Source: a virus. From it: a DNA stretch of 50,891 bases. Location: positions 1-50,891 of the IMG/VR virus record IMGVR_UViG_3300027733_000071. One strand, written 5' to 3'. The notes beneath the pieces were generated by a model. That model searched no databases, was not told the DNA's origin, and worked only from the letters and a program-made list of their open reading frames with translations. This document shows, one piece after another, positions 23,201-44,045 of the stretch (positions are counted from its first letter, which is position 1; each line of letters starts with the position of its first letter). Both the position numbers and the translations under genes were made by a program.

Positions 23201-25144
23201 ATCGTTAGGTATTGTATTTACAGTATTAGGCAAAGCATTATCAAGCGTCTCAAGTCTTACAGTGCTATTACGTCTTTCTGCCTTTTCTTGTGCAATACGC
23301 GGCGCAACAGCTTTTTTGAGAAACTTAGCTAACGACATATTGTTAACCTGATTCGGCGGAATCTCGCCTTTCATGATTGCGTTAATGTATTGCTGCCCTA
23401 AGACTGGTAAACCTGTAAGCTCAAAGCGAATACGATCAATGTCAAACATAGGCGCATCAGAAGGGGTTCTTGTATCTTGCAATTGCGGAAAGAATTGTCG
23501 ATATCTTGGATCAATTATAGACGCAAAATTTGAAGCTGCGCCTTTTTTAACACTTAAATCAGACGCTATCTCGTATGCTCTTGCAATTTGAATGTTTTGA
23601 TTATTTTCTTGTTCACGCTCCAACGCAGTAATTGCGTCATTACGAAGATTTGTTGTTACTCTGTTAGCTTCTGAGTCTGGTGCAGTAGCCATGCGCCTTT
23701 GAGTAATCTCATCAACTTTAGCTTTTAATTCCGCAATCCTTGCGTTTGAGTCAGCTAATTCTTTTGCGTATTCGCCTAAGGGTTCTCGACCTTGAGGGTA
23801 TTGCGGTGAAACTGCACTTGCACGAGCTTTTGCTGCAATATTTGCATCACCCATTACGCTTTCTGTTAGCAAGTTATTAGGTGAGTAGACTGTAACCCCT
23901 TGTCGCGCTGCTTGTAAAAGCGGATCTTCTGCTGTACCTGCGTACTTTGCAATTTGCTGTGTAAATGGACCTGACTTAAAACTTTCAGCCGCTTTTACTC
24001 GATCAGTAAATTCTGCAAGCGTAGGTAATTGAGAATTTTCAGACGCAGCAAGCGCCTGAGCTTCAGGTGTTTGCGTGAACTCGTCAAGCCATTTTACTCG
24101 ATTTTGTGCTTGACGCTCTGGACTTGTACCCATATTATACGCTTTATACGCCCCAGTCACGTCATCAATGTACGGGTACATTTCAAATACTTTGTTTCGT
24201 ACGTAATCATTGTACGCACCCATTACAGCAGGCGCAACAATGCCTGAATACGCTTCTATTATTGCAGTAGGGTTATCAAGGTTAACCGTTTCTAATTTAC
24301 TGAGAACTTTTGCAATCCCAGGCATTGACCGTGTAGTATCACCTTCTGTTGCATTTGCTAATGTACGTGATTCTGTATCAACGGGTCGTAGCAACTGGCC
24401 TTCATTCACATTGCGCACAGCGTTTAGCTTTGTCTCAGGCACCAGATTAGCACCAAGGATTGAAACAATAGGCTTGCCACGCTCTTTTTGCCGTTGCGCA
24501 TAGTTGCCTAACTCATCAGCCATTTGTTGAATAGACACGCCATACGTAGGCTTGCCTTCAGCAGTCATAGCTTTAAGCCTTTGCTGCGCATTAATAAAGT
24601 CTGCTGGGATATCTGCTATCTCTTTGCCTGTAGCCGCGGCTTGAGCTCTAAGAACTCGTGCATCTGTAGAACGAGGCCTAAAAGCACCTGCAGTTGGGAT
24701 GTATGCAGGCATACCTTTAAACGTCTCGCCTAAATCCTCAAGCATCTGGTTTGTGTAAGGGTTGTCCGATTGGTACTGCAACGCTGCAGATCGAGCTTGA
24801 GCTTCGTCATACGCAGACCTAGGAGAACCGGGTGGTACATACCCATATGAAAACGCAGCAGGCACACTTGTTGCCAATGATATAGGCACCTCAGCAAGTG
24901 GCTGCACAGCTTTGACTGCAGGAATCTGGCTCACAAGTTTCTTTAGGTTTGTAAGCCCAAGTCTTTGCTCGTAGTCTTTTAGGTTGCCAAGAAAGTTGGA
25001 GCCCATCTCACTGATGGACATCTGTGGCTGCGTACTCTTCTTTGCCAGCTCAAACTTCATGGCGTCAACATCAGGCCGTGTAGGAATATCAGGTGTGCTG
25101 TCATCACCAATGACATTGCCAAGTTCGTCGTAAACTAGCGCCAT
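20291..25144 (-). CDS. Giant virion-region protein with PcfJ-like and ADP-ribosyltransferase-like segments (1617 aa)
   Basis: A 1617-aa hydrophilic protein without transmembrane segments, typical of an injected internal protein. Residues about 680-796 (VCTGEDGSGG..., 'DIHDINTGHVVAQIEFNKI', then 'PEYQVAIKDYLNSR') match the order of a PcfJ-like polyvalent-protein domain. At about 1473-1590, 'TVYHATT', 'FTLRIPRGSRIGEIN' and 'GTEYAIINPDLLPRL' resemble the core of polyvalent-protein ADP-ribosyltransferases. The last 40 residues have KDGG/ADGG motifs shared with the KGG proteins. A coiled coil covers about 450-500. It lies between the portal and a 327-aa protein. It may be ejected into the host to modify targets. 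Domain calls are by eye. Confidence 0.5.
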   Translation of the reverse strand: MALVYDELGNVIGDDSTPDIPTRPDVDAMKFELAKKSTQPQMSISEMGSNFLGNLKDYEQRLGLTNLKKLVSQIPAVKAVQPLAEVPISLATSVPAAFSYGYVPPGSPRSAYDEAQARSAALQYQSDNPYTNQMLEDLGETFKGMPAYIPTAGAFRPRSTDARVLRAQAAATGKEIADIPADFINAQQRLKAMTAEGKPTYGVSIQQMADELGNYAQRQKERGKPIVSILGANLVPETKLNAVRNVNEGQLLRPVDTESRTLANATEGDTTRSMPGIAKVLSKLETVNLDNPTAIIEAYSGIVAPAVMGAYNDYVRNKVFEMYPYIDDVTGAYKAYNMGTSPERQAQNRVKWLDEFTQTPEAQALAASENSQLPTLAEFTDRVKAAESFKSGPFTQQIAKYAGTAEDPLLQAARQGVTVYSPNNLLTESVMGDANIAAKARASAVSPQYPQGREPLGEYAKELADSNARIAELKAKVDEITQRRMATAPDSEANRVTTNLRNDAITALEREQENNQNIQIARAYEIASDLSVKKGAASNFASIIDPRYRQFFPQLQDTRTPSDAPMFDIDRIRFELTGLPVLGQQYINAIMKGEIPPNQVNNMSLAKFLKKAVAPRIAQEKAERRNSTVRLETLDNALPNTVNTIPNDLRFGNVGVIEVTKDMPRIERLRNFSLATEFLDVCTGEDGSGGNAKLHFLTGKPRRYTPILDYITGETFQGSTGVERRTYSSNVQRGDKISDIHDINTGHVVAQIEFNKIGSTTASTPKYNINYVSGYHNQAIKPEYQVAIKDYLNSRASEIISAGPHLTDNIALYDAKSRSSVTAALDKIGKPRDAIPNSVIQSELPRFFTKEDIKALIPTQAAAVSYQGDLESLRLQKNELQDRISNGYYADADEINTVQQQVDEFDREIARVEQQIAEQGQQRPRRLPDIFAPNITPQIGQVLRDLVESERNILASNIVLDNPTRTGRARQIFQDLLTEVLQNNPVADGPFDLISELHGLIANEEIELPAIRQLHALGLMIEERLNDFGIQNEVFDPNAWEAEPEQRMPVAQRPALDPAMAAFMFSEYENALSALDMPNPEHTQELVDNFNRLYRSAAEEHNPETHPREFIDALHARWVDDPMEDPDLTRAIFALRRNVINELNPVQIDYVSVTEDIMDNERPGPLVRDAYESAMGNLVNLYGDTPQTLLGSLRDYIAEIAPLRPNGVVDRDILRAYGLRTSGQAHQLLDAFLATITRIEREMGRQREVFPGQLIPEEQVPDEVRADMLDQEIEGMAEDIMYALDDQYDFNNIEPATIRSLIRSLEEDNIEDVLGFATQDFEINGEIPPALVQSLIARLRNTLRGIEDNAAMMNEDEGPRPYATPNEAFVTFVNANDQFEGPDGQSTLQTLLQFIQRPNLRESLHLQNFTPEQIQELDELLRNYARQLNAPPAEQPPAAPARVQAPREVTGFNDVVYPPVYEAVRIYETQRNQTVYHATTANRPMMSTQEGRLIPNSVSASYRPDAVWGPRQFTLRIPRGSRIGEINNIFDLVPRYADDTPLNIGRYLRQYAEEQNLDVLKIRNVGGVGTEYAIINPDLLPRLNEPPAGRKDGGIIRMADGGPVSIDAMKYALMRNK

Positions 25145-26127
25145 CAGTCTTCACCAAACCCTTCATATCGTTTTAAGTTGTCGCCAAAAAAGTGCTGTAA
25201 ATACTCATCAATTTGACCTTCTGTAAAGTCAAAATCTTCTAACATACTTTTCATATACGCAGGCTCATCAACCGTGCGAGTAAACTCTGTGCCGCCTAGG
25301 AAGTCTTCCATTGGCACGTAATCCAAGTACTTACCAAAGAGATCGCCAAACTTTTTTACTGTGTTGTAGTGCGACTTTGTAGGCTCTGCGCCCTCAAAGA
25401 TTTTCTCATACGAATTTGATAAATACGTTGAGTATTTATCAAGCTTCTCTAAATCTTTAGTGGGTATCTTATCTTTTAAGTGATGTCGCACATCGTCATA
25501 AAAGCCATACGCAGAGCCTGCACCCCAGTCATCACTATTCATTTGCTCAACAACGCTATCAAGCATACTCTCTCTAAAAAACTTATCAATCAAAGGTATT
25601 GTTGGAGAAATCGTAGGCGCAACGCTTCTTACAACTTCAGGCGCAATCTCAGGCACGACTTCAGGTATAGCTTTAGGCGCAATGGTACCTACAGCTTGCT
25701 TACCTATACGTGACACTGCAGCGTTAGCAGGTATCTCCATGAACTTACGCCTTGACATAGGCATCTTAGCAAGCGCGGTTAATGGGTTAACAGGTTCTGC
25801 AGGTGCTTGTGCTTGTGCTTGTGGGCCCATAGGCGATTGTGGCAATGCAGACGGCTGCGCGGCAATAGGGCCTCCGGGTGGAAGCTTTGCCAAAGGGTCT
25901 ATCACGGCAGGCAATTGATCGGGCATCTGCGTAGGAATGTTTAGGCCCATCGTGCGTCGTGATAGATTCGGAGTTACAACAGGCTTAGGCTTTGCTTTAC
26001 CAAAGAGCCCGACCTGTTGCATAAAAGGACTGCGTTGTAATTGGCTTGCACCATCGTCGTAACGATTGAAGTCAACTGCTGCTTGCATTCTAGCTAGATC
26101 AGTTGGGTCAATATCGTCATACGGCAT
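25144..26127 (-). CDS. Virion-region protein, unknown (327 aa)
   Basis: The N-terminal half is Pro/Ala/Gln-rich and disordered (about 45-180, with repeats such as PEVVPEIAPEVV). The C-terminal half (about 185-327) is helical and acidic, with 'FDFTEGQIDEYLQHFFGDN' near the end. The start at 26127 has GGAGAG nine bases upstream and overlaps the terminase stop by 11 bases; a start ten codons earlier is unlikely. Its position between terminase and the giant protein suggests a second internal or ejection protein. I recognise no family. Confidence 0.5.
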   Translation of the reverse strand: MPYDDIDPTDLARMQAAVDFNRYDDGASQLQRSPFMQQVGLFGKAKPKPVVTPNLSRRTMGLNIPTQMPDQLPAVIDPLAKLPPGGPIAAQPSALPQSPMGPQAQAQAPAEPVNPLTALAKMPMSRRKFMEIPANAAVSRIGKQAVGTIAPKAIPEVVPEIAPEVVRSVAPTISPTIPLIDKFFRESMLDSVVEQMNSDDWGAGSAYGFYDDVRHHLKDKIPTKDLEKLDKYSTYLSNSYEKIFEGAEPTKSHYNTVKKFGDLFGKYLDYVPMEDFLGGTEFTRTVDEPAYMKSMLEDFDFTEGQIDEYLQHFFGDNLKRYEGFGED

Positions 26128-27547
26128 ATGGGTTGACTCTCCGCGGTTGAGTGTCATCTACGTAAATATCAGAATCATTATACACATAATCAAGCACAAG
26201 GAAACCTTGATCGCGTAATAAACGTAGTGCTTGTGTGGTAGCATCCACCAAGTCGTCATGTCGTACCTCGGGGAAGGCGCATAGCTGGCTGATGAGTGGC
26301 TCTACCCAATCTCGTGCTGCGCCTTCACGCACACTGGACTCAGGCACGTAGATCAAGCCGCGTTGGATGATAGGTGCAACCAAGTTGAGACGTTGTGTCT
26401 TGTCTGCCATGCCCGGGTTATACGCTCTTACGTTCAGGCCAGCACGTTGCAAGTCTTGGATGAGGGAGATACCGGCGCTCTTATCCTCAATCAGAATCAT
26501 GTCAACCTTCTTTCCGTTACCGAATTCATTGTCGTCGCCGTAAATCGACGTAGCTTCTTCGACAACACGAGGTCGCAGGTCAGGGTATTGCAGGTGTTCT
26601 TCCCAGCAGTCAATGACCATGGCTGACAGAGGCTTATCGTCGCTAGGTTTAAAGATGCCGAACACAACGCAAGCAGTCGGGTCGTTTTTAGTCTTGTCAG
26701 ATGTGGCGCAGTCATAGCTTTGCACCACGAATTGAAACTTAGGCAGTGGCTTCTCATGGGGCCAGAGCTTGAACCATTCACGTTTCACGATACCAGACTC
26801 TTCGGGGTCGATGATCTCGGCGTAGATTTCTTGGCGCCCTATCTTTGTACCCTCGTATTGCAGGATTTGCTTTTGGAAGTTAGGAGCAAGGTTCTGAATG
26901 TTGTCGAACGTGGTTGCTGTGGTGTAACATACATCATCACCATCGCGATTCACGAGATCCACTATCAAGGGCTTAGGCTTAGGAGTCGTAGTGCATATCA
27001 GCTTTGGGTGTTGGCCAAGTCGCATGCCGAATTGCAGCATGTCCCAAGCATCGTCAAGGTAGTCCCAGGCTGCGAGCTCGTCAAGCCAGCCACCATGGAA
27101 CTGCGGACCTCGAAAGCGATCAGGCTCAGAAGCTGCGATTCCTTTAATCATGCTCCCATTCACGAGTTTGATCTCATGTAGCGACTTAATGTAGTCCTTG
27201 ATGAGAATGTTGGGCACTACGTTAAGCAGTCCGGACTCTCCCTCAAAGCAGACATCACGCACATCGCCACTTGTAGGCGCGGAGACTAGCCAACGCGTGT
27301 TAGGCTGAGTCCAAGCCTCCCACCACACCCACTCAGCAGCGCAGCGTGTCTTACCGGCTCCTCGACCTGCCAAGAGTAACCAGATCGACCACCAGTCACC
27401 ACTTGGCGTGATTTGATGGTCATTGGCAATAGACAACCACTTGGTTCGAGCTTTAAGTGCACCACGCCACTCTGGCGTAGCTTTGTTGAGATCGGGGCCA
27501 GACTGAATGCGCTTGGTTAAGCGCTCACTTGTCGCTTGACTCAGCAT
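26117..27547 (-). CDS. terL: Terminase large subunit (476 aa)
   Basis: Packaging motor ATPase plus nuclease. The Walker A motif GRGAGKT is at about 61-67. The Walker B-like strand is 'FHGGWLDELAAW' (about 150-161). A coupling-type 'CTTTPKPKPLI' (about 185-195) follows. The C-terminal nuclease has acidic residues in SYDCATSDK, ILIEDKSAG and HDDLVDATTQALRLL. The C-terminal part looks like the GTA/terminase-6 type. It cuts concatemers and pumps DNA through the portal. I start at the ATG at 27547; a TTG fifteen codons earlier overlaps the small subunit more. The length is normal. Confidence 0.9.
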   Translation of the reverse strand: MLSQATSERLTKRIQSGPDLNKATPEWRGALKARTKWLSIANDHQITPSGDWWSIWLLLAGRGAGKTRCAAEWVWWEAWTQPNTRWLVSAPTSGDVRDVCFEGESGLLNVVPNILIKDYIKSLHEIKLVNGSMIKGIAASEPDRFRGPQFHGGWLDELAAWDYLDDAWDMLQFGMRLGQHPKLICTTTPKPKPLIVDLVNRDGDDVCYTTATTFDNIQNLAPNFQKQILQYEGTKIGRQEIYAEIIDPEESGIVKREWFKLWPHEKPLPKFQFVVQSYDCATSDKTKNDPTACVVFGIFKPSDDKPLSAMVIDCWEEHLQYPDLRPRVVEEATSIYGDDNEFGNGKKVDMILIEDKSAGISLIQDLQRAGLNVRAYNPGMADKTQRLNLVAPIIQRGLIYVPESSVREGAARDWVEPLISQLCAFPEVRHDDLVDATTQALRLLRDQGFLVLDYVYNDSDIYVDDTQPRRVNPYAV

Positions 27548-33310: not shown

Positions 33311-33465
33311 AATGCTGATTTCTTTTCACGATATGATAAACTTCAATTATTTTGAACTATTTTGCATAAAACTGTTTACAAACTCTGGAAACACATTAGA
33401 ATTGAAATTGTAGTAACTTAGTTAATTTTCTCTTGTTAAATAAATGTTAATTGAAAGGATTTAAA
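33311..33465 (+). promoter_or_regulatory. Second early promoter with shared operator
   Basis: TTTACA (33375-33380), 16-base spacer, TAGAAT (33397-33402), then ATTGTAGTA (33407-33415) around the start site, as in the divergent promoters. The exact 13-mer TTTCACGATATGA lies at 33324-33336, upstream of the -35 box. The region otherwise holds no gene. It drives the DUF932 gene from 33466. Confidence 0.6.
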
Positions 33466-34419
33466 ATGTCACACGAAATCGCAAAAACAGCAGCAGGTAA
33501 AAACGCAATGGCCTACGTTGGCGCAACTCCATGGCACGGCCTCGGTCAGGTATTAACTGCCGATGCTCCCTTAGAAGTTTGGGCTCAAGAATCTGGCTTA
33601 GATTTCTCATTAGCAACAACTGATGTAGAGTTTACAACGCCCGGCTTTGCAGGTTCTAAAATACATAGCAAATATGCAGGTCGTAAAGTAATGTATCGTA
33701 CTGACAGCGCAATGCCCTTAGGCTTAGTATCTGACAAATACAAAATTGTACAGCCGATCGAAGTTCTTGAATTCTTCCGCGATATCGTTGGCACAATTGC
33801 TAATCTAGAAACAGCCGGTGTTTTACGTGACGGTGCTCATTACTGGGCATTGGCTAAGATGAACGGCGAGTTCTCTCTTGCAGGCGATCGTGTTAATCAA
33901 TATCTTCTATTAGCTTCATCAGCTGATGGTTCCCTTGCCACTCAAGCACGTCTTACTAGTGTCCGAGTTGTTTGCAACAACACATTGCAATTAGCTACAG
34001 CAGGTAAAAAAGCTGATGTTAGTGTGCGTCATAACTCAGTATTTAAAGCAGCTGATGTTAAGAATCAATTAGCTAACTTTGATAGCAGCTTCAAAATGTT
34101 TAAAGATACAGCCGAAGCTCTGGCTCGTATCAAAGTATCATCAGCTCGAGCTAATTTTATCTTTGCTAAGATTCTTGGTGGCGATGAGAACAAGCCAAGC
34201 CGCGCTGCTGTTCGTGCATTAGAGTTATACCAAGGCGCTGGTATCGGTGCTGATCTTGAATCAGCCAAGGGTACAGCATGGGGTGCTTTAAACGCTGTGA
34301 CTCAGTTACTTGATTGGGAAACAGCTCGTACATCCGATGCAAGACTTGCTAATGCTTGGTTTGGCGGTGGCGTTAATGTTAAGCAACAAGTTGTTACTGC
34401 TTTAATGGCTTTAGCGTAA
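33466..34419 (+). CDS. DUF932 family phage/plasmid-like protein (317 aa)
   Basis: The motif 'MAYVGATPWHGLGQVL' near the start and the order 'SDKYKIVQPIEVLEFF', 'GAHYWALAKMNGEF', 'SVRVVCNNTLQLA' and 'VSVRHN' match DUF932 (TIGR03299), a phage and plasmid family of unknown function. It may be linked to recombination or replication, judged by the genes that usually surround it. It has its own promoter and a strong terminator, so it is a separate transcription unit and probably highly expressed. The ATG at 33466 follows TTGAAAGG. Confidence 0.8.
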   Translation: MSHEIAKTAAGKNAMAYVGATPWHGLGQVLTADAPLEVWAQESGLDFSLATTDVEFTTPGFAGSKIHSKYAGRKVMYRTDSAMPLGLVSDKYKIVQPIEVLEFFRDIVGTIANLETAGVLRDGAHYWALAKMNGEFSLAGDRVNQYLLLASSADGSLATQARLTSVRVVCNNTLQLATAGKKADVSVRHNSVFKAADVKNQLANFDSSFKMFKDTAEALARIKVSSARANFIFAKILGGDENKPSRAAVRALELYQGAGIGADLESAKGTAWGALNAVTQLLDWETARTSDARLANAWFGGGVNVKQQVVTALMALA

Positions 34420-34448: not shown

Positions 34449-34508
34449 GTATAATTATTTTGTTGTCTCTTGTTACTAGTTTACTTATTGATCTTTGAAA
34501 GGTATTGT

Positions 34509-35030
34509 ATGAACATCTTCTATCTCCACCCCGTAGCACAAATTGCAGCAACTATGCATTGCGATAAACATGTTGGCAAAATGCTAATCGAATCCTGTCA
34601 ACTCCTAGCCACTGCGCATCACCACTATGGCAATGGCGCCAATGTTACCTATAAACCTACACACAAAAATCATCCTAGTGCTGTCTGGGTTCGTCAGTCT
34701 GTATTACATTACAATTACCTTGTCGATTTAGCTTGTGGCTTAGGCGCCGAGTTCTATAAACGTTATGGCAAACGCCATAAGTCACACGAGGTTCTTGTTG
34801 CTGAATTACTACTTGCGCCTAAAGATATGCACGATATCCCTTACCGTTGGCAAACACCACCCTTGGCAATGCCTGATGCTTACAAAAGCGATAACGCACT
34901 TACATCATATCGTCGCTATTACGCCAGCAAAATTGCAACAATGCCATTAGTGTATTACAAAGGCAAAGCACCAAGGCCGTATTGGCTTCAAGAATTATTA
35001 TGGTCACAAGACTTTAGGAGCGCAGCGTAA
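34509..35030 (+). CDS. Conserved phage protein with HCDKH motif (173 aa)
   Basis: The start 'MNIFYLHPVAQIAATMHCDK' with HVGKMLIES and CQLL, then 'YKPTHKNHPSAVWVRQS', 'YGKRHKSHE' and 'PPLAMPDAYK' is a recurring phage protein pattern of unknown function. The many conserved His, Cys and Asp suggest a metal-binding or nuclease-like enzyme. I do not recognise an established activity. The ATG at 34509 follows TTGAAAGG. The next gene starts on its stop (TAATG), so the pair may act together. Confidence 0.55.
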   Translation: MNIFYLHPVAQIAATMHCDKHVGKMLIESCQLLATAHHHYGNGANVTYKPTHKNHPSAVWVRQSVLHYNYLVDLACGLGAEFYKRYGKRHKSHEVLVAELLLAPKDMHDIPYRWQTPPLAMPDAYKSDNALTSYRRYYASKIATMPLVYYKGKAPRPYWLQELLWSQDFRSAA

Positions 35031-35428
35031 TGTTTAAATCTGTTGGAATATTTAGAGAGAAGATGGGCCTGCCTATTGGGACTGTACCTAAGTTATTAAG
35101 CGCTGAGGAGACATCATACTTCGCACGCTTTATTATGGAGGAGCTCTCTGAGTATCTTAAAGCCAATGAGGAGCATGATTTAATAGGCGCTGCTGATGCG
35201 ATCGCTGATTTAGTGTATGTATCCTTAGGCTGTGCACACGCGATGGGTCTACCATTTGAAGAGATCTTTGAAGCTGTGCACACAGCCAACATGCAAAAAG
35301 AACCTGCAGGTCCGTATACTCGATCGTTGCGAGGCTCACAATATGATGTTGTCAAGCCTTCTGGGTGGATGCCCCCTGAGCCTGCAATACAAAACGCAAT
35401 TCACCGTAAATCATCCGGAGCAAATTAA
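35030..35428 (+). CDS. MazG/all-alpha NTP pyrophosphohydrolase-like (132 aa)
   Basis: The core 'FIMEELSEYLKANEEHDLIG' and 'AADAIADLVYVSLGCAHAMG' (about 34-75) carries the EExxE...ExxD/DxxxD pattern of all-alpha NTP pyrophosphatases. Metal-binding acidic residues are Glu37, Glu38, Glu41 and the Asp residues of ADAIADLVY. The family hydrolyses dNTPs to dNMP and pyrophosphate; T4 gp56 dCTPase is a member of the same superfamily. A dCTPase role would fit the modification genes downstream, but specificity cannot be read. Confidence 0.7.
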   Translation: MFKSVGIFREKMGLPIGTVPKLLSAEETSYFARFIMEELSEYLKANEEHDLIGAADAIADLVYVSLGCAHAMGLPFEEIFEAVHTANMQKEPAGPYTRSLRGSQYDVVKPSGWMPPEPAIQNAIHRKSSGAN

Positions 35429-41175: not shown

Positions 41176-41454
41176 ATGGATATTACAACTGTAGCACCCT
41201 CATTTATTTCTCAACCACCTCAGGAGCAACCTATGCCCGCAAATAAGCGCATGCACGTCAAGAAAACTGCCACTATTACATTGTTGGCAACAGAAAACCC
41301 AAAGCGAAAGAATACACTAAGCTTTACAAGGTTTGCTTTATATAAAAATGGTATGACTGTTGGCGATTACATTGCAGCAGGCGGTCGTTCTGGTGACGTT
41401 AATTACGACGTTGAAAATGGTTATATCAGCATCAGTCATGGGCAAGAGCAATGA
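41176..41454 (+). CDS. Conserved small phage protein (92 aa)
   Basis: The part 'TENPKRKNTLSFTRFALYKN' then 'GMTVGDYIAAGGRSGDVNYD' (about 38-77) is a recurring small phage protein pattern with unknown function. The first 20 residues are likely disordered. The ATG at 41176 follows TTGAAAGG, and a second possible start is at 41233. It is the first gene of the modification block. Confidence 0.5.
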   Translation: MDITTVAPSFISQPPQEQPMPANKRMHVKKTATITLLATENPKRKNTLSFTRFALYKNGMTVGDYIAAGGRSGDVNYDVENGYISISHGQEQ

Positions 41455-42338
41455 ACATACTAATAACAGGCGTTACTGAAACGCATACAAATCATCCAAA
41501 TAGAGCAAGCTCTACAAAGTTTATCTCTATTCCTGAAATGATGGCTACCGCTTACACAAAGCTAGGCTATAGTGTTGACCATCGCGCTATTGAAATGGGA
41601 GAAGACCTCTCCATATACGATACAGTCTTTGTATACGTATACCCCTTGGACCATAATGCAATTGATCCCGAAGGTGCCATCTATGCACTGCAACAACGGA
41701 CTGATGCATACATTTGCCTTGATGATTGGTCATTTCAAAAGATCTTACCAACGTGGGAAAGCAAAATTGATTTAATGCATTTAATGAATCGTACGTGGCT
41801 TGCACCGCTATTCCCTTGGGGTGATATTGATAAGATGAAATTACCTGTAGCAAACATTATTGCATGGGACCCATCACCATTATATGAAATGCCACCTGTG
41901 CACCAATTGTCATGGCAGCAACGTAAGCAAGAATGGTATAACGCATCACTCTCAAAAGACGCGCATGAATGGGCAACAAAGCAACAGCTACAGTGGCCTG
42001 TATATTCCATTGGCGGTAAAGCATTAGGGCAGCCTAGAATTTTGGAGTCAGATGTTGTATGGCAATATGGCTCTTACAAAGGTGTGCTATGCCCTACATA
42101 CGCACATGCAGGCTCTGGCTGGTGGAGAGTACGTTATTTACACGCTGCAGCTGCAGGTTGTGTGCTTGGTGGTAACCCATTGGAATTAAACATGATTGGG
42201 CCTGCGTATAGTTATGCATTAGCCGGCTTAGAAATGATGCACGATGATGACTTACGGCACATTGCAATATTACAAGCAAGAGAGTTATGCCCTGCAACTT
42301 TAAAAGAAACAATGTATATTTTAGAAAGATTGCTATGA
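41451..42338 (+). CDS. Putative DNA glycosyltransferase, GT-B-like (295 aa)
   Basis: The N-terminal half is Rossmann-like: MNILITGVTE, 'FISIPEMMATAYTKLGYSVD', 'LSIYDTVFVYVYPLDHN' and 'AYICLDDWSFQKI'. The C-terminal half has 'YGSYKGVLCPTYAHAGSG' and 'WWRVRYLHAAAAGCVLGGNP', then a helical end. The layout recalls T4 beta-glucosyltransferase (start, LGxxVD strand, central Asp strand, RVxx-helix-AxxLI strand), but similarity is low and by memory. Its neighbours are a dNMP kinase and a dCMP-hydroxymethylase-like enzyme, so transfer of sugar to hydroxymethylcytosine DNA is the best guess. Overlaps neighbours by four bases on each side. Confidence 0.45.
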   Translation: MNILITGVTETHTNHPNRASSTKFISIPEMMATAYTKLGYSVDHRAIEMGEDLSIYDTVFVYVYPLDHNAIDPEGAIYALQQRTDAYICLDDWSFQKILPTWESKIDLMHLMNRTWLAPLFPWGDIDKMKLPVANIIAWDPSPLYEMPPVHQLSWQQRKQEWYNASLSKDAHEWATKQQLQWPVYSIGGKALGQPRILESDVVWQYGSYKGVLCPTYAHAGSGWWRVRYLHAAAAGCVLGGNPLELNMIGPAYSYALAGLEMMHDDDLRHIAILQARELCPATLKETMYILERLL

Positions 42339-43282
42339 TTGTAATACTTGAAGGACCTGACGGCGCCGGCAAGACAACGCTATCAGATACATTACGTCAA
42401 CAGTTGCAAAATGGTAAGATGGTGCACGTTGTTAAGCATGGCCCATACACTGATGTAGAGGCAGAGCACTTATGCAAAATCTACTTTAGAGCAATGACAC
42501 CTGCATTAACATTTGATGACCACGTTATTATGGATCGTTCTTGGCTGTCAGAGCCTATTTACGGTAATACTTATCGCAATGGTCAAAATCGTATTGACAT
42601 GCCACGTAAACGCATGCTTGAGCGTGCTGCTTTATCTCGTGGAGGTATAGTTATCCATTGCCAGCCTGATTTTGAAGTTTGTGCTAAAACATTTTCACGT
42701 CGTACTGATGAAGAATACTTAGATACCTTACTGCAATTGGAAGCTGTGTATGATGAGTATGAAGCTTTAGGGCTAATGACAGCATTGCCAACAATCCACT
42801 ATGACTATACGCGTGACACTATTGATGAGTTAATAAGTAAGATTGATTACATTTACGCGTCAAGGCAAAACAAAGCAAGTGGCGGTGGCTGCTTCAAGGA
42901 AGGTAACATCCTTATGTTGTGCGATAAGGGCCCTAGAACCAACGTAAAAGAATCTGCAGTAGTTATACCTTTCATTAACTTTAATGATGATGACGGCCCT
43001 AGTCGTATGCTTGCAACCGCATTACAGAATGAAGGCGTCATGGAAAATGAAGTCTATTGGATTAATACGCAAACTTATACCGGCTTGCCAACTGACCCAA
43101 GCTTTATTGCAAAACTAAAACCTAAGAGAATTTTTGCGTTAGGCAACAATGCGTATACATGGGCTTTACAACATCAAATCAAAGCTGTAAAATTACCACC
43201 ACCTTTGCATCACATGCAAAATTATCCCGATCAACCGTATCACATCACAGAGATTAATTATGGAAATTTCAACACTGTATAA
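42335..43282 (+). CDS. dNMP kinase fused to a UDG-like domain (315 aa)
   Basis: Residues 1-180 form a thymidylate-kinase-like P-loop enzyme: EGPDGAGKTT (6-15), an MDRSWLSEPIYG motif, 'RTDEEYLDTLLQLEAVYDEY' lid-like helix. Residues 190-315 form a second domain: 'NILMLCDKGPRTNVKES', 'PSRMLATALQNEGV', 'VYWINT', 'LKPKRIFALGNNAYTWAL' and 'PPLHHMQNYPD'. This is the strand-helix order of a uracil-DNA-glycosylase fold, though its usual Asp-Pro motif is missing. The kinase could make hydroxymethyl-dCDP from the monophosphate. The second domain may bind the modified base. The fusion is unusual. The next gene overlaps by 23 bases. Confidence 0.7.
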   Translation: MIVILEGPDGAGKTTLSDTLRQQLQNGKMVHVVKHGPYTDVEAEHLCKIYFRAMTPALTFDDHVIMDRSWLSEPIYGNTYRNGQNRIDMPRKRMLERAALSRGGIVIHCQPDFEVCAKTFSRRTDEEYLDTLLQLEAVYDEYEALGLMTALPTIHYDYTRDTIDELISKIDYIYASRQNKASGGGCFKEGNILMLCDKGPRTNVKESAVVIPFINFNDDDGPSRMLATALQNEGVMENEVYWINTQTYTGLPTDPSFIAKLKPKRIFALGNNAYTWALQHQIKAVKLPPPLHHMQNYPDQPYHITEINYGNFNTV

Positions 43283-44045
43283 CGAGCATGACTTAATTCA
43301 GCTGTACCAATGCCTTAAAGAGTATGGGCACTGGACTACGCCTCGAGGTGAAAAGACTCTTGAGATTGAAAACTTTACTTACACAACGGGGCCGTATGTT
43401 CGATTCAATTCTTTCGCAGGTCGTAACTTTAATCTCAAGTATCTCAAGCGCGAAATGGCTTGGTATTTGCGTGCTGACCCTACAGATTTGTCTATTACTG
43501 AACATGCTGCGCAGTGGGGCAAGATCGTGGTTAATGGAAAGCTTAATAGTAATTATGGTTCTTACTGGTTTGGTAAGTTTGGTGTACGGCATGTTGTAAA
43601 CATTTTGCAAAACGACCCGATGAGTCGCCGTGCAGTCATACCGATGTATGGCACTGATGTTGACCACATGGATAAAGAAGCTAAAGATGTGCCTTGCACT
43701 ATTGCTATTGAGTTTAGATTGCGAAATGGTAGATTAAATACACGTGCCATCATGCGTTCTCAGGACATTCTTTGGGGCATGGCCAATGATCTACCCACAT
43801 TTAGTTTCCTACAGGAAATTGTAGCAACACTTTTAAACGTACAGTTAGGCACACTAACAGTTTCTGCAGGATCATTCCACGTATATGAATCTCGTATGGA
43901 GATGTTTAACGCAATCATTAGCAATAAAACATTAGAGCCAATTGTTGACAGGCCTCCACGTATTAATCGTTATGAGGCACACAATCTTATTGAAAAATCA
44001 ATTAACCCTACATTCGAGTTCTCAAAATGGCTAATGAACATATAA
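43260..44045 (+). CDS. dCMP hydroxymethylase-like (thymidylate synthase fold, 261 aa)
   Basis: Thymidylate-synthase-fold enzyme. Catalytic Glu65, Tyr99, SRR at 122-124, nucleophile Cys146 in VPCT, MRSQD at 165-169, Gly173, and GSFHVY (His207, Tyr209) are all present. The residue that reads the base, Asn177 in E. coli ThyA, is Asp177 here (MAND), as in T4 dCMP hydroxymethylase (FRND). Other T4 gp42-like features are KTLEI near residue 32, KREMAWY, LNSNYG and GSxHVY. It would turn dCMP into hydroxymethyl-dCMP using methylene-tetrahydrofolate. A dCMP methylase is the main alternative. No alignment was run; the comparison is from memory. Confidence 0.8.
   Translation: MEISTLYNEHDLIQLYQCLKEYGHWTTPRGEKTLEIENFTYTTGPYVRFNSFAGRNFNLKYLKREMAWYLRADPTDLSITEHAAQWGKIVVNGKLNSNYGSYWFGKFGVRHVVNILQNDPMSRRAVIPMYGTDVDHMDKEAKDVPCTIAIEFRLRNGRLNTRAIMRSQDILWGMANDLPTFSFLQEIVATLLNVQLGTLTVSAGSFHVYESRMEMFNAIISNKTLEPIVDRPPRINRYEAHNLIEKSINPTFEFSKWLMNI

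Follow-up and report, generated by a model that had tools for sequence, protein, structure and literature searches.

Here, we describe a three-gene block with overlapping reading frames, carried by a freshwater virus of bacteria (IMG/VR record IMGVR_UViG_3300027733_000071; the whole record of 50,891 bases was analysed and is called the window below), which we read, with a probability of about 80%, as a cytosine-hypermodification operon leading to hydroxymethylcytosine (hmC) DNA capped with a sugar. Computation established the folds, residues, conservation and gene linkage that carry this reading. The genes form a gapless run on the plus strand and encode a glycosyltransferase (GT)-like protein (41451-42338, 295 aa), a kinase with a C-terminal tail resembling uracil-DNA glycosylase (UDG) (42335-43282, 315 aa) and a thymidylate-synthase (TS) homolog (43260-44045, 261 aa). 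The open reading frame (ORF) of the kinase can be opened at 42287, but similarity to its homologs begins only at the ATG at 42335; because the homologs align only from that methionine, we took it as the start. The resulting overlaps, 4 bases (ATGA) between GT and kinase and 23 bases between kinase and TS homolog, are those given in an original prediction made from the letters of this DNA alone, which had also proposed a TS-fold enzyme with a cytosine-type Asp177, a dNMP kinase and a glycosyltransferase-like protein. Our results support its interpretation, which was largely right, with corrections to the gene order in T4 and on the kinase-UDG fusion, which is not unique.

The block is conserved as a unit. 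When IMG/VR was scanned, the TS protein and the GT each yielded 56 loci, and nearly all of the related freshwater viral contigs retrieved that span the block keep the same order and spacing of the three genes, the exceptions being contig ends. Identity to the window within this clade ranges from 61 to 99%. Where synonymous divergence (dS) was unsaturated, the ratio of nonsynonymous to synonymous change (dN/dS) was 0.04-0.19, which indicates purifying selection on the block.

The sequence of the 261-aa protein makes a strong case for a cytosine substrate. Its best sequence matches in the PDB are the CMP 5-hydroxymethylase 5b6d (2.5e-15) and Escherichia coli ThyA, with T4 gp42 (1b49) at 4e-11, and it keeps the catalytic residues of the TS fold, Cys146, Arg166, Asp169, His207 and Tyr209. 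Asp177 aligns with Asn177 of E. coli ThyA and with the Asp of T4 gp42. Indeed, the window protein and gp42 both carry the pair T147/D177, unlike E. coli ThyA (H147/N177) and the dUMP hydroxymethylase of SPO1 (N147/N177), so that a comparison with dUMP-type enzymes, proposed along with the original prediction, places the protein on the cytosine side. A previous study found positions 177 and 147 to be the two best discriminators between TS homologs of modified and unmodified contigs (PMC8670742). That the product would carry a hydroxymethyl rather than a methyl group is suggested by the similarity to gp42 and by the glycosyltransferase partner.

The 295-aa protein has no family in Pfam and no sequence match in the PDB, and falls into phrog_14998, annotated in PHROGs as of unknown function. 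An AlphaFold2 model, built from an alignment of 58 sequences from the window and viral contigs, reached a pLDDT of 89.7 and a pTM of 0.88. VIA-align placed T4 beta-glucosyltransferase (BGT, 1nzd) at the top (Z 17.2, rmsd 4.0, 279 of 295 residues aligned), with SenB (8jjn) at Z 16.6 and T4 alpha-glucosyltransferase (AGT, 1y8z) at Z 15.6; in a Foldseek search BGT ranked third (E 1.5e-5). On this model we assign the protein confidently to the GT-B fold, as the glycosyltransferase-like label had anticipated, and the ranking of BGT suggests DNA as the acceptor. Comparison of the GT profile with T4 BGT alone in hhalign gave nothing useful, and PF09198 (T4-Gluco-transf) has no match in the window genome, while T4 gives 328 bits. 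Ten residues are invariant in all 58 family members (Asp92, Trp93, Gly188, Glu199, His219, Trp224, Trp225, Arg226, Arg228 and Glu245), and the motif around the first of them suggests that Asp92 may correspond to Asp100, the catalytic Asp in the N-terminal domain of BGT.

Is the neighbourhood of this GT family and a cytosine-type TS homolog a general feature? The neighbours of distant family members (24-33% identical) include TS homologs, dCMP deaminase, MazG and, in many cases, UDP-galactopyranose mutase. Of 20 records that are 20 kb or longer and contain a distant GT member, 19 have a TS homolog (15/15 in one search, 4/5 in another); of 17 similarly sized control contigs, picked up by a chance match to the DNA pattern and lacking a GT in the stretch examined, none has one (Fisher p 1.1e-9, a figure made optimistic by related contigs). 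Asp177 occurs in 40/40 GT-linked TS sequences, some of them from the same record, and Thr147 in 38/40. A clean internal control is provided by a jumbo phage record of 349,660 bases (350 kb; G084, loci L362 and L363): it encodes a D177/T147 enzyme at a distance of about 7-8 kb from the GT, which also has UDP-galactopyranose mutase nearby, and in another place a canonical N177/H147 ThyA. Among 84,980 bacterial and archaeal species genomes, scanned with one exact peptide pattern, we found a single GT-family locus; within the limits of that pattern, the family is essentially confined to viruses. UDP-galactopyranose mutase was absent from all 13 window-clade records searched. We also observed two adjacent, diverged GT-family genes at many distant loci (L246, L326, L250, L239, L302 and others), where two sugars per base are possible. 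Furthermore, the hypothetical protein downstream of the GT-mutase pair in Actinomycetia phage DSL-LC01 (L345, 10148-11137) is a diverged GT-family member (69 bits).

The family extends to cultured T4-like phages. It was reported that the Aeromonas phages 44RR, 31 and 25 possess gene 42 and no known glucosyltransferase (PMC2993671). Here, we found a GT-family member next to UDP-galactopyranose mutase in Aeromonas phage 25 (L384, 3932-6113; 181 bits), in Aes508 (L372, 3319-5501) and in Erwinia phage FBB1 (L371, 4937-7062), with scores of 181-191 bits across the three; neither gene was found in 44RR, 31, RB69, JS98 or T4. The BGT family of Pfam has no match in Aes508 and FBB1, both T4-like. The TS homolog of FBB1 is of the D177/T147 type; a second TS, of divergent sequence, is present in Aes508. 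Judged by these sequences, the window GT family may supply the transferase that Aeromonas phage 25 was reported to lack. We tentatively propose, at chances slightly short of even, that the 295-aa protein represents a family of hmC-DNA glycosyltransferases, as yet undescribed and nearly restricted to viruses, whose mutase-bearing members, phage 25 and FBB1 included, would attach a furanose (galactofuranose or similar), and that the window clade, having no mutase, would use a nucleotide sugar of the host. A search of the open-access literature for galactofuranosylated hmC, or for the mutase in connection with phage DNA, returned nothing relevant.

Several points weigh against a pathway that ends in glycosylated hmC DNA. 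A sequence profile of the window GT family gives T4 BGT only 2.3 bits, that is, no detectable similarity, and we found no chemistry for any member of the family. Experimental support, on the other hand, comes from a relative, Stenotrophomonas phage AXL3, in which MazG, a kinase-UDG fusion, TS and dCMP deaminase lie one after another; of 37 enzymes tried on its DNA, only 2 cut, and their sites contain only A and T (PMC7504290). This resistance fits a modified cytosine made through kinase-UDG and TS; the digestion does not tell a modified C from a modified G, and the window GT family is absent from AXL3, so that this phage supports the first steps only. Two further points touch the enzymes themselves. 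Asp177 is also found in dCMP methylases, and the single exchange N177D shifts ThyA towards 5-methyl-dCMP (cited in PMC8670742). SenB, within one Z unit of BGT, is tied with it in structural score, and GT-B folds serve many acceptors. Both would be accommodated if the TS homolog were a dCMP methylase, as in the Xp12-type phages with 5-methylcytosine, and the GT acted on another substrate such as a protein or a cell-envelope glycan. We consider this unlikely: in widely differing phages the GT family goes together with D177 TS homologs, it is nearly absent from bacterial genomes in the pattern-based scan, T4-like phages without Pfam's BGT carry it, and a methyl group offers a glycosyltransferase nothing to attack.

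The predicted dNMP kinase is clear in the N-terminal part of the 315-aa protein. Its model matches YorR (3kb2) with Z 18.1 and thymidylate kinases with Z of about 15-16, confirming a thymidylate kinase fold, and its P-loop, GPDGAGKTT, follows the pattern GxDGxGK[ST]. The UDG-like nature of the tail is best seen in Bacillus phage G, whose gp315 has the same fusion and a Pfam UDG match of E 1.5e-12 (residues 189-318), while the window tail itself matches weakly (E 0.064). Pseudoxanthomonas phage PW916, AXL3 and Manatee phage ctUtU524 share the tail and carry full-length relatives. The fusion is not unique to the window: phage G, AXL3 and PW916, among others, have it too. In hhalign the tail aligned with phage G gp315 at a weak probability of 11%, with the motif region placed correctly; a PDB search with the tail gave only noise, and when the complete kinase model was submitted to a fold search, the kinase domain took up the matches and residues 187-315 were barely covered. 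The prolines P288-P289-P290 are invariant in 31 clade members, leaving neither an HP(S/A/Q) motif nor the catalytic-type histidine of UDG, and the motif-1 region is divergent in the window clade. Because the catalytic-type histidine is lost, we read the tail as a recognition or structural module. By sequence it is probably UDG-derived and non-catalytic; a role in base recognition is our guess. In the three usable dN/dS comparisons (the kinase row of L003, being out of frame, was left out), selection on it is as tight as on the kinase domain.

This equal conservation, together with the ability of UDG folds to flip bases, would also suit a fusion that acts on DNA, the UDG-like domain flipping hmC and the kinase phosphorylating its hydroxyl, which would yield a base more complex than glycosyl-hmC. 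In other phages, the kinases that act on 5-hydroxymethyluracil DNA belong to the P-loop class as well. The kinase domain, however, best matches dTMP-type kinases of free nucleotides, a tailless kinase of 160-165 aa lies beside TS in Xp15 and an Acinetobacter phage, as a nucleotide kinase would, and T4 needs such a nucleotide kinase (gp1); we judge action on DNA improbable, a shade more so than a methylase. Least probable of all is a tail that works as an active glycosylase removing unmodified or wrong bases or nucleotides, for although phage G gp315 retains a clear UDG match and the HP motif, the histidine has become proline in 31/31 aligned clade members and the motif-1 region is divergent.

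We return to glycosylated hmC, for which the following route can be drawn. The TS-fold enzyme would add a hydroxymethyl group to dCMP, and the kinase would convert the resulting hm-dCMP to the diphosphate, from which the host would complete hm-dCTP. A MazG-type enzyme encoded elsewhere in the genome probably removes dCTP, and the phage PolA-type polymerase would build hmC DNA. After replication, the GT-B protein would act much like T4 beta-glucosyltransferase, transferring a sugar from a nucleotide-sugar donor to the hmC in the DNA. The kinase tail, without its catalytic-type histidine, would most likely serve base recognition or structure.

Features of the cytosine-modification block and the candidate dCTPase gene, in window coordinates
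Feature	Position	Strand	Basis
Predicted hmC-DNA glycosyltransferase with GT-B fold, from an unnamed family almost restricted to viruses, 295 aa	41451..42338	+	AlphaFold2 and structure search
Asp92 codon, candidate catalytic base	41724..41726	+	Asp in 58/58; motif YICLDD, compared with YYLFTD (Asp100) of T4 BGT
Kinase domain, residues 1-186 of 315	42335..42892	+	Pfam Thymidylate_kin 2.2e-6; phrog_761 thymidylate kinase 7e-23
Degenerate UDG-like C-terminal domain, residues ~187-315	42893..43282	+	Fusion in common with Bacillus phage G gp315
Pro-Pro-Pro, residues 288-290	43196..43204	+	Replaces HPAY (phage G) / HPQY (AXL3, PW916)
dCMP hydroxymethylase-type thymidylate-synthase homolog, 261 aa	43260..44045	+	Pfam Thymidylat_synt 8.7e-20
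Thr147 codon (Thr in T4 gp42; His in canonical ThyA)	43698..43700	+	Alignment; invariant in 34 close homologs
Asp177 codon (cytosine specificity)	43788..43790	+	Invariant in 34/34 close homologs; present in all GT-linked TS homologs
MazG / PRA-PH-type nucleotide pyrophosphohydrolase, candidate dCTPase (T4 gp56 step)	35030..35428	+	Pfam PRA-PH 3.5e-15

Elsewhere, the window encodes terminase, head and tail genes, an SNF2 helicase, a PD-(D/E)XK nuclease and the MazG-like enzyme, and a 615-aa ORF is read from its sequence as the PolA-type polymerase. For the MazG-type protein we infer a dCTPase role; a gene of the MazG/PRA-PH type also adjoins kinase and TS in AXL3, PW916, Xp15 and ctUtU524. Upstream of it lie a 186-aa protein (34470-35030) with a DNA-binding match to phrog_624 (5.6e-48) and a weak pyrimidine-dimer glycosylase match, and a DUF932 protein (33451-34419; 2.3e-51). 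Most clade members have a gene of about 230-240 aa 3' of TS (e.g. L014, 8824-9543), which the window does not have; the one such gene searched had no PHROG match.

Pathways to glycosylated hmC are chemically known from T4 and related phages. The form seen here would be a compact operon in freshwater phages of about 50 kb, with a GT family unnamed by Pfam and PHROGs. The main novelty lies in this family and in the furanosyl-hmC predicted for its mutase-bearing relatives. The family offers a concrete candidate answer to the question left by Aeromonas phages that possess gene 42 and no known glucosyltransferase (PMC2993671), and the window enzymes may be useful reagents for the labelling or protection of 5hmC.

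The T4 pathway (gp42, gp1, gp56 and the alpha- and beta-glucosyltransferases) resembles that of the window in its steps, in its D177/T147 TS homolog and in its use of a GT-B enzyme. The original prediction had assigned the T4 genes to other locations; this is true of gene 1 (74649-75374), which lies far off, whereas b-gt (24400-25455) directly adjoins gene 42 (25479-26219). In the window, unlike T4, the kinase is part of the operon and fused to a UDG-like domain, and the GT has neither detectable sequence in common with T4 BGT nor a match to Pfam T4-Gluco-transf. RB69, a T4-like hmC phage, has arabinosyl-hmC DNA and ORF003c, a GT-B candidate distinct from the T4 alpha- and beta-glucosyltransferases (PMC6024577); ORF003c differs in that it does not match the window GT profile, which has no match anywhere in the RB69 genome. 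Aeromonas phage 25, Aes508 and FBB1 have the window GT family in common, but with UDP-galactopyranose mutase as its direct neighbour.

Bacillus phage G (gp313-gp319) shares with the window the kinase-UDG fusion (gp315) and a D177/T147 TS (gp319), with an annotated alpha-glucosyltransferase (gp313) nearby; it differs in that gp313 falls outside the window GT family (0.8 bits) and a putative dCMP deaminase (gp317) is present. This locus (L369) may, in its own right, also lead to glycosylated hmC DNA. Xp15 and Acinetobacter phage MD-2021a likewise hold a D177/T147 TS, a nucleotide kinase and a PRA-PH/MazG gene in one block. However, their kinase is without the UDG-like tail, dCMP deaminase lies within the block, and a NodU-type carbamoyltransferase stands upstream instead of a glycosyltransferase. 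A phage carbamoyltransferase of this kind modifies hmC (MetaGPA, PMC8670742). Across these phages, the finishing enzyme that accompanies the kinase-TS core appears to vary.

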